DNA from: a virus
Reading direction: 5' to 3' (one strand)
IMG/VR virus record: IMGVR_UViG_3300033553_000637
Location: 1-24,287 of that record
Length of the DNA stretch: 24,287 nucleotides
How positions within the stretch are numbered: position 1 is the stretch's first letter; every line of letters starts with the position of its first letter. Positions 699 through 5,575 of the stretch are shown in pieces. The notes under the pieces were generated by a model. It worked only from the letters and a program-made list of their open reading frames with translations, did no database searches and was not told the origin of the DNA. Both the position numbers and the translations under genes were made by a program.

Positions 699-1427
699 CT
701 AATTCATAGTATTTAACCGGATTGTGGCCTTTATTAAGGCCAAGGCACGTATTTTTTTTAATTGCACATCTTTATCCTGGTGGTGTTTGTTTTCACTCAC
801 CAATTTAATGTATTCTATGCCTTTTTCAGATTTTTGAATGTATTTCACGGTTACAAATTCCTCTTCACCTACGTCAATGCTCAATAGGTACATTTCGCCC
901 CAAAAAATATCGTTTTCAATATCTTCAACTTTCCTATAGGCAACAATATCCCCGTTTTTTAATAATGGGTACATACTATCCCCGGCAACATACACGGCTC
1001 CATCACATCTTGGCAGGTTGGGGATACTCATGGTATCTAATACTTCCAATTCTTCACTTCCCCTAAATAATTCAACTAGACCGGCTGTAGCCTCCAGGTT
1101 ATATATCGGAATTAATTGTTGTTGTAGATCATTATCGGTTCTTAAAGGGAAAACTCGTAATTTTTTATTATCAATCTTTAGTGCCTTATTTTCACTCATT
1201 AAAGGAAGATTGGAATGTTCATCTCGCAGATTTGAATGTATTAAATCACTTTCCGAAATGTCAAAATATCTGGCAATTTTAATTAAATCATTAAACTTTG
1301 GGTATGAAGCTCCTTTTTCATAATTAGCCCATTGAGTTCTTGTAAACTGCATAGATTCAGCTATCTTATCTTGTGTTAGGGCTTTTCTAAGCCTCAAGTA
1401 ATGAAGGTTTTCGCCAAAATTTATCAT
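699..1427 (-). CDS. Prophage repressor, HTH + S24 peptidase-like
   Basis: 242 residues. Residues ~3-62 form a Cro/cI-type helix-turn-helix (LTQDKIAESMQFTRTQWANYEKG). The C-terminal half is a LexA/S24-type domain: Ser151 in GDSMYP and Lys195 in VTVKY fit the catalytic dyad, and Ala115-Gly116 (ATAGLVEL) sits 35 residues before the serine, close to LexA spacing, so self-cleavage is plausible. It is transcribed leftward, divergent from the early operon, as Mu c is; the protein itself is lambda/LexA-like rather than Mu c-like. It very likely maintains lysogeny by binding the palindromes at 1446-1478. A cleavable form would link induction to RecA and DNA damage, which is inference. Confidence 0.9.
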   Translation of the reverse strand: MINFGENLHYLRLRKALTQDKIAESMQFTRTQWANYEKGASYPKFNDLIKIARYFDISESDLIHSNLRDEHSNLPLMSENKALKIDNKKLRVFPLRTDNDLQQQLIPIYNLEATAGLVELFRGSEELEVLDTMSIPNLPRCDGAVYVAGDSMYPLLKNGDIVAYRKVEDIENDIFWGEMYLLSIDVGEEEFVTVKYIQKSEKGIEYIKLVSENKHHQDKDVQLKKIRALALIKATIRLNTMN

Positions 1428-1444
1428 ATTCTAAATAAATTATT

Positions 1445-1459
1445 TCCAAATTATTTGTA
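1445..1459. promoter_or_regulatory. Second, imperfect operator copy
   Basis: CAAA-TTA-TTTG at 1447-1457 matches the core of the perfect palindrome CAAA-TTG-TTTG, with its centre 18 bp to the left. It also contains TTTG (1454-1457), a candidate -33 element of the rightward early promoter, so a repressor bound here would cover it. Confidence 0.5.
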
Positions 1460-1486
1460 ATTGTCAAATTGTTTGACATATATTTG
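1454..1486 (+). promoter_or_regulatory. Early rightward promoter (Bacteroidota type)
   Basis: TTTG at 1454-1457 and TATATTTG at 1479-1486 match the Bacteroidota TTTG / TAnnTTTG pair with a 21-bp spacer. Transcription would start near 1492, about 20 bases before the ATG at 1512. The perfect palindrome fills the space between the boxes, which implies repression by occlusion. Confidence 0.65.
1462..1478. promoter_or_regulatory. Perfect 17-bp palindrome, probable repressor operator
   Basis: TGTCAAATTGTTTGACA is a perfect inverted repeat (7-bp arms, 3-bp centre) between the divergent repressor and early genes. It abuts the TATATTTG -7 box. A single half-site, GTCAAAT, follows at 1503-1509 just before the first early gene. 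Position and symmetry make it the best candidate operator in the window. Confidence 0.7.
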
Positions 1487-1511: not shown

Positions 1512-1718
1512 ATGGAATTAGAAGAAATCATAAAGCTCAAAAAGAAATTAAAGCCCAGAATGGAGCTTGGTGACTATGTGACATTAGGTAAAATGTTCGA
1601 TATAGCGCAGAATACAGCAAGGGCACGTTACCTCAGAAATAACGAAGAAGCAGTACTGGCAATGAAGGAAATCATTGAATCCAGGGAAGCATTGATTAAT
1701 AAATTTAAAAAGGATTAG
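1512..1718 (+). CDS. Small DNA-binding regulator, Ner/Cro position
   Basis: 68 residues, highly charged. Residues ~21-45 (DYVTLGKMFDIAQNTARARY) read as a helix-turn-helix in which TLGKMFDIA and NTARARYLR would be the two helices; the C-terminus is a charged helix. It is the first gene of the early operon behind the palindromic operator, the position of ner in Mu and cro in lambdoid phages, so a negative regulator of early or repressor transcription is plausible. No Shine-Dalgarno is evident, as usual in this phylum. I do not recognise the family with certainty. Confidence 0.7.
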   Translation: MELEEIIKLKKKLKPRMELGDYVTLGKMFDIAQNTARARYLRNNEEAVLAMKEIIESREALINKFKKD

Positions 1719-1720
1719 AT

Positions 1721-2080
1721 ATGAGTAAAATAAACTTCACACCCACATTGATAGACAATAAAGCTTATGATTTCTATTTGAATTATAGAAATAAGAGCGA
1801 AAAAAGACTTTCTATCAAACAAATACAGGAATACACCTATAATGCTTCGGTACTTAATTCGCTCCTTGAAATTATTGACAACCGTGCAGCCTATGCAAAA
1901 GCTACGGGTGTAAAACCAGGGAATTTATGGGACATGCTTAGTAATGATGTAAACAATTTAAAGCACGTTCCCCACACCTTACCAATTACATCAAGTGGAT
2001 TACGGCTTAAAGCTAAAAAATACAAGGATGAAGGATATACAAGCCTTATTTCATCCAGTCTCGAAAACAAAAACGCATAA
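1721..2080 (+). CDS. Stand-alone paralogue of transposase DNA-binding domain
   Basis: 119 residues. Residues 12-119 align with residues 104-213 of the transposase encoded at 2526-4625. From Tyr38 to the end the alignment is gap-free, with about 47 of 82 identities by hand count, including YTYNASVLN, LSNDVN, GLR, KYK and SLIS. In MuA the comparable N-terminal region binds the end sites. The protein stops where the transposase linker begins and has no catalytic domain, so it could bind phage ends without cutting them: a competitor, targeting partner or regulator. It starts 2 bases after the preceding stop. Codons differ at many wobble positions between copies, so the duplication is not recent. 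It is not a fragment left by a frameshift, because the transposase is complete. Confidence 0.85.
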   Translation: MSKINFTPTLIDNKAYDFYLNYRNKSEKRLSIKQIQEYTYNASVLNSLLEIIDNRAAYAKATGVKPGNLWDMLSNDVNNLKHVPHTLPITSSGLRLKAKKYKDEGYTSLISSSLENKNA

Positions 2081-2525
2081 TTATGAAAATTCAAGTTTTC
2101 TCACCTCACTACACACATCAAAATCAGTTAACTCCAACATTATTAACTGAATTATCGAACCGTAAAGTTCAACTAGATATTCTGCCCGCTTCTTCCCTAA
2201 TGAAATCATCACAATCCCACGTGCCGACCAAAATTCCTTTTCAGGTATTAAAGATTGAGCGTCAGGAGGATAATAGTTTATTGTGCAAGGAGAACGGTCG
2301 AAAGCTCCCTTTAACGCCGTCAGGTGGGCTAGACAAGGCTCAACTTGAGCTCGAAATTGCTCTTCGTCTATGGTAGGGTTAGAGCCAACTATATCAACAA
2401 TTAAAACATAAGAAGATAACATATCACTAGTATTTAAGATTAGACACCCTAAATGTAGTGATTTTCCCGAAAGGCATACAGGGCGGTTCGAGTCCGTCCC
2501 GGGAAACAATCAATACCCCAGAATA
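2081..2525. other. Non-coding structured stretch between domain paralogue and transposase
   Basis: 445 bases with no convincing gene. A 97-codon plus frame (2083-2376) starts 2 bases after the preceding stop but its protein is featureless; a 142-codon minus frame (2081-2509) starts inside the tRNA-like arm. Several inverted repeats lie here: TAGAC/GTCTA (2330-2334, 2366-2370), GAGC/GCTC (2347-2350, 2359-2362), GGCTC/GAGCC (2337-2341, 2382-2386), and the two strong hairpins at 2423-2506. Part of it is visibly richer in G and C than the neighbours. It breaks an otherwise tightly packed operon and so is likely functional RNA, a mobile remnant or a control region. Confidence 0.55.
2423..2506 (+). 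ncRNA. Candidate structured RNA with tRNA T-arm-like hairpin
   Basis: Two hairpins abut exactly. The first pairs ATCACTA (2423-2429) with TAGTGAT (2456-2462) and, after a small bulge, ATTTA (2432-2436) with TAAAT (2450-2454). The second pairs TTTCCCG (2463-2469) with CGGGAAA (2500-2506) and encloses an inner stem GGGCGG/CCGTCC (one G-U pair) around the loop TTCGAGT, the classic T-loop sequence of tRNA. A 7-bp acceptor-like stem stacked on a T arm resembles a tRNA minihelix, but I could not build a complete tRNA: no D arm, anticodon arm or upstream acceptor partner fits. It ends 19 bases before the transposase ATG. Options: leader structure, tRNA-derived remnant, or new small RNA. Confidence 0.4.
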
Positions 2526-4625
2526 ATGCAGGAATCACCATACGAATATTACGACGGTAAGCTTGGACTTAAAATTAAGTACCTCATTTCCGATAATGAC
2601 GGACAATACCAACGTCATTCGGAAAGCATCAGGGTGATATCATACGATGCTCTTAAAAAACGTATGAATCGAAAATCTAGTTGTGAAAAAAGACTTCGTC
2701 GGGCTGCTTTGAACAATGATACTCTTATACTTTTTTCTTCAATTTCCAGAGAATGGAAGGATCGGCTCACCACAAAATTTGGAAACCCGAAAGAAGAAAT
2801 AAAAGAAAGTTGGTTTGCTCAACATTACACAGCAGATCGAAAAGCCTATGAGTTTTATGTTGGACATAGATATGGTGAGAAAAACGAAAAGAAACTGGAC
2901 CTTAAATTGGTTGAGACCTACACTTACAATGCTTCAGTTCTCAATGCTGTATTAGAGATGAAAACCAACCGCCGTGCATACGCAAAAGCCTTGGGCGGTG
3001 TGCAGTTGGATATATGGCAAAGCCTTAGCAACGATGTGAATGCATTCAGGGAGGTTGCCCACGATCTTCCGGCGACAAGGGATGGTTTACGACGAAAAAC
3101 CAATAAGTATAAGAAAGAAAGCTTTCTAAGTCTTATATCCGGTCGCCTTCAAAACATTAATGCTTCTAAAACAAAAGGCGAAGAGCAAATGGCAATGCTT
3201 GATGAATTGCTTTCCAAGCATACCAACCTTGACAACCAATTAATTTCAGAAATATACAATGCAGTGGCCAAGCAATTGGGATGGGAGGAAATAACACCAA
3301 TGACCGTTAGTAACCGGAAAAACAAAAAGAAAGTTACTATTCACGCTGGCCGAAATGGTATAAAATCCTTGAAAAGCAATGTGCTAATGCAGGTAAAACG
3401 AAAAAAACCAACCACCCCCATGTTATACTGGACACTGGATGGTTGGGATGTAGAATTGTTGTACCAGGATACTGCCATAGATAAGAAGGGAAATAAAGTA
3501 ACCACCTATCACAATCGATTAACGGTAGTTGTGGTATTGGATCCACACAATAACTATCCTGTAGGCTATGCCATAGGAACAAATGAAAGCCCGGCACTTA
3601 TTAAAAAGGCACTTCAAAACTCCATGAGACACGTTAATTCTCTTTTTGGCGAATTATATATGCCTTACCAGCTTCAAAGTGATAACTACGCCGTAAAGAA
3701 CCTTACTCCAATTTATAAGGCAATCACTCCGCATTTTACTCCTGCTGAAGTTGGTAATGCCAAAGCAAAAGTGATCGAGCCTTATTTTGGTTATATCAAT
3801 AAAAAATATTGCAAACTATTGGACAATTGGAGTGGTCATAACGTAGATAGTGGCAGCAAAAACCAACCTAATAGTGAATACCTGCAAAAGATTAAAAAGA
3901 GCTTTCCAGATCAAAAAGGCTGTATTTCACAAATTGAAGCTCTAATTTCTTCAGAGAGATCTAAAAAACAGGAAGAGTACCAACAAAACTGGCTTGAGAC
4001 TAAAGAAGAATTCAAGCAGATCATGAGCCTTGAAAACTACCTACTAACATTTGGTAGCAGTACAGGTGATACCAATAAACTTACCGGCGAAGGTGTTGTG
4101 ATAAAAATTGAAGGTGAAAAATGCTACTTCGACAGCTTCGATTTAAATTTCAGGCATCAATCCCACTTAGACTGGAGCATCCAGTATGACACTAATGACC
4201 TTAGCCAGGTTCTTGCCGTTTCTGATGATGGTACCGAACGACACCTCTTAGAGCAAAAATATATCCAACCAATGGCTTTAGCAGACAGGACAGAGAAGGA
4301 TCCTTTTGAGCTAAAACGCATTAAAGACTTCAATAAAACTACAATAGATATTATTGTGGATGAGCGTGCCAGCAACTCCCGATTACTTGATACGCTTCTT
4401 GACAGACCTGAGCTAAACGACACTCTTGCAAAACATTTGCTTACCGACAGTGTAGGTCAGCACAAAAACCACAAAAGCCGGGAACGTTTGGAAGTTGCCA
4501 AAAATTCCAGTCAGTTAGTTGAAAAGACTGCCAAAAAGGAAGAAAAAAAGCAATTGAAAACCTTTGCCGATGAACAGCAGGAATACTACGACTCTAAAGT
4601 GAATATTAACGAATACATCTCATAA
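2526..4625 (+). CDS. MuA-like DDE transposase
   Basis: 699 residues. It should bind the phage ends and carry out replicative transposition by strand transfer. The N-terminus (~1-95) is the Mu-type winged-helix region typical of Bacteroidota homologues (YYDGKLGLK ... LFSSISREWKDRL). Residues ~96-215 are the end-binding domain duplicated at 1721-2080. The RNase H-like core starts near YWTLDGWDV: Asp308 (or Asp305), Asp386 (QSDNY) and Glu418 (KVIEPYFG) fit the DDE triad. The C-terminal ~100 residues are charged and may contact the B ATPase. The stop is followed 2 bases later by the B gene. Start chosen at the ATG at 2526 because the N-terminal domain is complete from there. Confidence 0.95.
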   Translation: MQESPYEYYDGKLGLKIKYLISDNDGQYQRHSESIRVISYDALKKRMNRKSSCEKRLRRAALNNDTLILFSSISREWKDRLTTKFGNPKEEIKESWFAQHYTADRKAYEFYVGHRYGEKNEKKLDLKLVETYTYNASVLNAVLEMKTNRRAYAKALGGVQLDIWQSLSNDVNAFREVAHDLPATRDGLRRKTNKYKKESFLSLISGRLQNINASKTKGEEQMAMLDELLSKHTNLDNQLISEIYNAVAKQLGWEEITPMTVSNRKNKKKVTIHAGRNGIKSLKSNVLMQVKRKKPTTPMLYWTLDGWDVELLYQDTAIDKKGNKVTTYHNRLTVVVVLDPHNNYPVGYAIGTNESPALIKKALQNSMRHVNSLFGELYMPYQLQSDNYAVKNLTPIYKAITPHFTPAEVGNAKAKVIEPYFGYINKKYCKLLDNWSGHNVDSGSKNQPNSEYLQKIKKSFPDQKGCISQIEALISSERSKKQEEYQQNWLETKEEFKQIMSLENYLLTFGSSTGDTNKLTGEGVVIKIEGEKCYFDSFDLNFRHQSHLDWSIQYDTNDLSQVLAVSDDGTERHLLEQKYIQPMALADRTEKDPFELKRIKDFNKTTIDIIVDERASNSRLLDTLLDRPELNDTLAKHLLTDSVGQHKNHKSRERLEVAKNSSQLVEKTAKKEEKKQLKTFADEQQEYYDSKVNINEYIS

Positions 4626-4627
4626 TT

Positions 4628-5575
4628 ATGGATAACATTACCAAACAACTTATTGCCGAAAAATGTAGGCTGTATATATCTGAAAACAACCTAACCCAAT
4701 CCGACTTTGCCTCCAAGGCAGGAATGGGCAAAGAGTTTATTACCCACATTCTTAAAGAAGGATCAGACTTCACCTATTCCGCAGGTAAAAACAAGATCGT
4801 AACCATTTCCGATAAGTATTTTACAAGGATTGCAGAATTCATTGGCCTTTCACTTACCAAATCCTATTGGGAAATTATACCCACCCCACAATTGACCCAG
4901 GCAATATCAATATTAAAGGATGCTAAAGCATACGGTGCTACCAATTTGATCATTGCAGATACCGGAGCAGGGAAAACCCAAAGCGTGAACCTGTTCCACC
5001 GTAAAAATCCGGCAGATACGTTTGTTGTTACCGTGGGAAGTTCAGATAACCTCTCAGATCTTATAGATAAGATCATAGACCAGCTGAAGATCACTACCGG
5101 AAAAACAAAAAGCAAGAAGCTTCGGGATATTGCGAAAAAACTGCGCAATATGAAGGAAAGCGGACTGGAACCTCAGTTAATTATGGATGAGGCCGAATAT
5201 ATGAAGATCCCTGCCCTTTGTGCGACCAAGGAACTATATGATTACCTGCACCAGTACTGTTCTATTGTATTGGTAGGAACTTCACAATTACTTAAAAACC
5301 TTGACAGTCTTCGCAAAAAAGACAAGCCCGGAATACCTCAGTTTTACAGACGGATAAAATTTGGGATCCGAAAATTACCAAATGTGGATACTTCATTTAA
5401 ACTCTTTTTAAACGGCCTTTCAAATGAGGTTCAAAAGTATCTAAGAAAAATATGCGATAACTACGGAGAGCTTCATGATGTTCTGGTGCCGGTTAGGCGT
5501 GAGGCAGATCGGACTGGAGAGACCATTACCGTAGCTTTTATTCAAAAAGTGTTAAACCTCTCAAAAGACTACTAA
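4628..5575 (+). CDS. MuB-like AAA+ ATPase, transposition target selector
   Basis: 315 residues, 2 bases downstream of the transposase. Residues ~8-80 form an N-terminal HTH (LTQSDFASKAGMGKEFITHI), as in MuB. The AAA+ core has a Walker A motif at 111-117 (DTGAGKT), Walker B at 184-188 (LIMDE) and a sensor-like VLVGTSQLL. MuB coats target DNA in an ATP-dependent way, recruits and activates MuA and gives target immunity; length and gene order match that role. Nothing in the sequence suggests a defect. Confidence 0.93.
   Translation: MDNITKQLIAEKCRLYISENNLTQSDFASKAGMGKEFITHILKEGSDFTYSAGKNKIVTISDKYFTRIAEFIGLSLTKSYWEIIPTPQLTQAISILKDAKAYGATNLIIADTGAGKTQSVNLFHRKNPADTFVVTVGSSDNLSDLIDKIIDQLKITTGKTKSKKLRDIAKKLRNMKESGLEPQLIMDEAEYMKIPALCATKELYDYLHQYCSIVLVGTSQLLKNLDSLRKKDKPGIPQFYRRIKFGIRKLPNVDTSFKLFLNGLSNEVQKYLRKICDNYGELHDVLVPVRREADRTGETITVAFIQKVLNLSKDY

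Follow-up and report, generated by a model that had tools for sequence, protein, structure and literature searches.

Regulation of transposases by their own truncated forms is common, and a small gene lying ahead of an intact MuA-like transposase raises the question of whether a transposing phage carries a regulator of this kind as a gene of its own, or whether the small gene is a functionless leftover. The window analyzed here is a viral contig of 24,287 bases in IMG/VR and comes from a Mu-like phage that infects Bacteroidota; relatives of its transposase were located in Flavobacteriaceae and other Bacteroidota. The small gene, referred to below as the copy, has an intact frame, starts 2 nt past the stop codon of the ner-like gene and comes second in the early operon (Table 1). 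Its stop codon abuts that of the convergent gene X. Pfam gave no match for the ner-position gene, and the candidate promoter ahead of the operon was read against the consensus known for the phylum Bacteroidota. Near the left end of the window direct repeats of TGAAACTACCCCC(C/T)AA are present at 540-555 and 594-609 and also at 138-153, with TGAAACTACCCCC at 540 and 594. These repeats (138-610) could be end sites for the transposase. In the stretch from the left end to the repressor gene, ATGCGGGGACAG occurs three times in tandem (484-519).

Table 1. Features in the left part of the window, with coordinates, strand and the basis for each assignment.
Feature	Position	Strand	Basis
CI-like repressor (HTH_19 + Peptidase_S24)	699..1427	-	Pfam and PHROG matches
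Candidate early promoter, Bacteroidota-type	1454..1486 (TTTG 1454-1457, TATATTTG 1479-1486)	+	sequence reading, inferred from phylum consensus
Small gene in the ner position, 68 aa, opens the early operon	1512..1718	+	position and by-eye similarity to the small pre-transposase gene of relatives
Stand-alone Ibeta-like subdomain gene (the copy), 119 aa	1721..2080	+	alignment, selection tests, model pLDDT 83
Gene X, convergent, 113 aa	2081..2422	- (likely)	homologues in L035, L125, L175, L183-L187
Anticodon-less tRNA-like minihelix (acceptor-like stem, GG-containing spacer, T-arm)	about 2463..2511	+	directly before the transposase
MuA-like transposase, intact, 699 aa	2526..4625	+	PHROG 310; Foldseek to 4fcy, 9bw1, 8aa5
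Ibeta-like segment within the transposase, residues 104-213, paralogue of the copy	2835..3164	+	alignment
Igamma-like segment of the transposase, residues ~214-296, missing from the copy	3165..3413	+	model helix pattern and register against MuA (low statistical confidence)
MuB-like ATPase	4628..5575	+	PHROG 296, AAA_22

Local alignment paired residues 12-119 of the copy with residues 104-213 of the transposase with a single 2-residue gap, at a score of 290 as compared to a mean of 38 and a maximum of 63 for 300 shuffles. The alignment given in an earlier, sequence-only reading of the window, in which the last 82 residues of the copy run without gaps against transposase residues 132-213 with 47 identical, was reproduced exactly. 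Open frames, alignment and segment profiles likewise agreed with its description of the copy as a separate gene that has no catalytic core and lies upstream of an intact transposase.

The domain identity of the copy was assessed through the transposase. The transposase matched PHROG 310 'transposase' at 3e-37 and its structural model matched TnsB and MuA transpososome structures in Foldseek at E-values of 1e-12 to 1e-14. The predicted elements run from a winged-helix-like N-terminus (to about residue 85) through a helical region (about 96-203) and a second helical region (219-285) to an RNase H core from residue 300. A full-length profile alignment with five MuA proteins (hhalign) kept order and register at a low-confidence E-value of 0.046, placing transposase residues 96-207 against MuA 80-168 and residues 216-285 against MuA 175-247. 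Local profile comparisons alone gave no match of the segment to MuA Ibeta, Foldseek searches of PDB and BFVD with the isolated copy returned nothing significant, and a profile search against PDB sequences gave no match. The C-terminal end of the copy coincides with a subdomain boundary, transposase residue 213 lying in the linker that leads into the following helical domain. A profile of the segment between the Ialpha-like and Igamma-like parts recovered the copy at an E-value of 1e-37. Read by domain order, the copy would correspond to one half, the Ibeta-like one, of a bipartite Ibeta-Igamma end-binding module and not to the whole. The segment holds the same place as Ibeta of MuA, preceded by a winged-helix Ialpha-like domain and followed by an Igamma-like helical domain and then the RNase H core; unlike Ibeta of MuA it also exists here as a separate gene, and its sequence has diverged too far for profiles to match it to Mu itself with confidence. 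In MuA the ends are bound by both Ibeta and Igamma (PMC3362531). The sequence-only reading had taken the copy for a duplicate of the end-binding domain; its paralogy to the end-binding region stands, and its extent is reduced to the first, Ibeta-like half.

The distribution of such genes was surveyed by scanning genomes and viral contigs with transposase alignments, which yielded 160 loci, and the census was taken over 134 distinct regions, each at least 700 nt long, upstream of related transposases. An Ibeta-like stand-alone copy was found in the window only (1/134). The domain profile detected no second intact stand-alone copy in the scanned loci, and no extra stand-alone copy was present in 16 relatives (13 whole genomes and 3 virus records). 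Maintenance across related phages was thus not borne out, and the absence of the copy beside related transposases, named in the sequence-only reading as the mark of a passive duplication, argues against a conserved control system. Wider searches gave no close relatives of the copy in IMG/VR using a peptide pattern, and only distant transposases or unannotated matches in phage and plasmid collections. Eight matches were obtained in 400 host-family genomes, none of them a small intact stand-alone gene, as each frame was the size of a transposase, ran into the end of a contig or was plainly broken. A broken, frameshifted MuA-like transposase is present in a Flavobacteriaceae genome (L174, 1240-3255). 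When the copy was placed in trees of the transposases it grouped with the transposases of the window, L011 and L033 in about 57% of resamplings and with that of L017 in 29%, and the duplication likely arose within this phage.

To find orphan pieces of the transposase, it was divided into seven segments and a profile of each was searched against all frames. Only three phages had such pieces in the slot that separates the ner-like gene from the start of an intact transposase. These were the window, a phage with a separate Igamma-like piece (L035 1472-1831, identical to L173 542-901; E 1.5e-15), and a third with a partial Igamma-like piece of only about 26 homologous residues (L026 4532-4699; E 2.5e-8). 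Orphan catalytic or C-terminal pieces were found in the slot in none of the loci. The contents of the slot differ strongly among relatives, and in many of them the transposase follows directly after the ner-like gene.

The sequence-only reading had taken wobble divergence between the copy and the transposase as a sign of long-term maintenance. Third-position identity between these transposases is 35-48%, even to a relative that is 74% identical, which is near saturation, so this argument is weak alone and a codon model was needed; the codon model did give signs of selection. A branch model was applied to ten sequences and a neutral branch was tested in two trees. Omega on the branch of the copy was 0.10-0.11, and 0.07-0.10 over all placements in the tree, as compared to 0.017 for the transposases, making the constraint on the copy about six times looser, and equal omega was rejected (2 delta lnL about 27). 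A neutral branch for the copy was also rejected (2 delta lnL 7.0 and 6.5 in the two trees, p about 0.01), and with omega near 0.1 the neutral decay for which a dN/dS comparison of the paired copies had been proposed is disfavored. The branch of the copy is long, at 1.05 as compared to 0.06-0.22 for the sister transposases. A two-phase relic model, in which the sequence evolved first like a transposase and then neutrally, differed in fit from constant purifying selection by no more than about 1 lnL unit and implies about 0.75 neutral substitutions per codon. In simulations with this amount of neutral change the frame stayed open in about 3%, and retention of 31 of 34 conserved hydrophobic positions, as seen in the copy, occurred in about 1% (p about 0.01).

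Conserved basic positions behaved differently from the hydrophobic ones (Fisher p = 0.009), with 5 of 10 lost in the copy, which is about the expectation under free drift. Highly conserved positions were altered at 12 of 44 sites in the copy as compared to at most 5 in any close transposase. The helix that follows the LP-S/T motif retains the equivalents of R189 and K191, and the net charge of the copy (+5) is inside the transposase range. As the selection tests share data, saturated synonymous sites and simple models, they amount to moderate evidence for a selected fold, suggesting that the copy is under selection for a folded protein rather than freely decaying. The two-phase variant, a former transposase that is now neutral, is disfavored by the simulations of frame and core retention.

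We favor, with a probability of roughly 40%, the reading that the copy is a lineage-specific, still-folded partial paralogue of the phage's own transposase that acts as a weak damper of transposition in trans. Judging from its position and intact frame, the copy would be made together with the other early proteins. It would still fold and would touch part of the end sites non-productively; alternatively, it may enter transposase-DNA complexes and bring no catalytic core to them. Either way the result would be a weak trans-acting damping of transposition on the principle of IS1 InsA, with contacts and direction of effect presumed. Since the copy is half of a bipartite module with an altered basic surface, weak or indirect damping is to be expected rather than strong occupation of the ends, and with the Ibeta-like half only and half of the conserved basic positions lost, simple occupation of the transposase's end sites is doubtful. 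The ends of Mu are bound much more weakly by Ibeta alone than by Ibeta and Igamma together, which makes a half-module a poor competitor. Homology beyond chance, the end at a subdomain boundary, the Bacteroidota-type candidate promoter ahead and the pattern of substitutions favor a damper; occurrence in one phage, relaxed constraint, loss of basic positions and the half module weigh against it. Also counted in its favor were the two unrelated phages whose slot contains an Igamma-like piece of its own, the lack of orphan catalytic or C-terminal pieces there in all loci, and the InsA precedent.

InsA of IS1 has the DNA-binding domain of its transposase, represses transposition and competes with InsAB' at both ends (PMC12428005). 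The copy resembles InsA in being a separate protein whose DNA-binding domain is common with the transposase. InsA, however, is the product of its transposase's own gene when frameshifting fails, whereas the copy is a diverged separate gene holding half of a bipartite module. Like the inhibitors InsA, Inh and KP the copy has a DNA-binding part and no catalytic core, though the part is half a module only; the maintenance across related elements that marks this type was not seen (1/134 upstream regions). The Tn5 inhibitor protein and the P-element KP repressor are truncated transposases that act as negative regulators. Unlike the copy, they are same-gene products or derive from internal-deletion elements, and they belong to other transposase families. 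In Mu, repressor c and MuA are a regulator and a transposase with a common DNA-binding domain, and this domain is Ialpha, which binds the enhancer/operator, not Ibeta, which binds the ends. A limited search of the open-access literature turned up no description of a Mu-like phage that encodes half of the end-binding module in a gene of its own.

A close rival, ranking just behind the damper and itself quite possible, is that the copy is a relic of recombination. An incoming module of gene X, minihelix and new transposase would have displaced or invaded an older transposase, leaving behind a functionless piece that is open by chance. The strong variation in slot contents fits this, as does the fact that in L035, as in the window, gene X has a transposase-derived piece directly against its 3' end; the short L026 piece looks relic-like, the branch of the copy is very long and the two-phase model fits almost as well as constant purifying selection. 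A relic would nevertheless need both a stop-free frame and a well-kept hydrophobic core after its neutral phase (the 3% and 1% outcomes above), as well as a 5' deletion of the Ialpha-like part that still left an ATG 2 nt past the ner-like stop. Gene X is moreover found without any such piece in L125, L175/L186, L183 and L187.

The split between a hydrophobic core kept at 31/34 positions and a basic surface half lost also suits a protein that retained its fold and changed its surface, binding other DNA, such as the early operator region, or another partner instead of the transposon ends. A second early-operon gene adjoining the repressor and the ner-like gene would be well placed for this, but the R189 and K191 equivalents are retained, the net charge is within the transposase range and no alternative site was identified, and we regard a new target as improbable. 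It is very improbable that the copy was joined to the contig during metagenome assembly: although this is a single metagenomic contig and the junction was found on no second contig, the ner-like gene 2 nt before the copy and gene X after it, known beside Mu-like transposases of several phages, make both flanks typical of the locus.

Homologues of gene X that are 43-57% identical occupy this slot at other loci, next to their Mu-like transposases (L035, L125, L175, L183-L187), and Pfam and PADLOC gave no match for gene X of the window. A promoter-like CACTACATTT lies on the minus strand in three of four copies and GCTACATTT in L125. The coding strand is likely the minus strand, likely rather than proven because the long plus-strand frame opposite gene X is open in 3/4 homologues too. 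An obligatory link between gene X and the copy was rejected, given the loci listed above that have gene X only. Other minus-strand genes, unrelated to gene X and each beside a tRNA-like minihelix, occupy the slot in L003 (1915-2319), L094 (about 1204-1443) and L099 (about 2104-2349), which suggests a cargo site expressed in the direction of the repressor.

The minihelix resembles a tRNA elbow without an anticodon arm, and consists of an acceptor-like stem, a spacer of 6-15 nt and a T-arm with a TTCGA loop. The spacer contains GG in 29/31 and the tail is often GCAA or ACAA. In Bacteroidota Mu-like phages it sits immediately ahead of the transposase gene and recurs a few kb beyond it (window 2463-2511; L034 4918-4957; L093 4087 and 4936; L103 1124; L175 1087; L101 7260; L105 7534; L022 10833; and others). 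Hits numbered 34 on the transposase strand as compared to 2 on the other strand and 1 in three triplet-shuffled copies, and the 31 distinct copies comprise 23 acceptor pairings and 18 T-stems. ARAGORN and Rfam did not call the minihelix in the window and a brief literature search found no description of it. It could serve as a processing signal for RNase P/Z or mimic a tRNA.

A broader reading, rather unlikely in our estimate, is that Bacteroidota Mu-like phages repeatedly copy out Ibeta or Igamma as early genes in the ner-transposase slot as a phage-specific trans brake on replicative transposition, in which case the pieces in the window, L035 and L026 would be independent births of one kind of regulator. 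If functional, the copy would add a new variation to a theme already known, that of regulators derived from transposases. Should it act in trans, it would offer a small and clean handle on the timing of replication in a transposing phage, and on the question whether half a bipartite module can work alone. If it is a relic, it would mark the slot between ner and the transposase as a site of module exchange.
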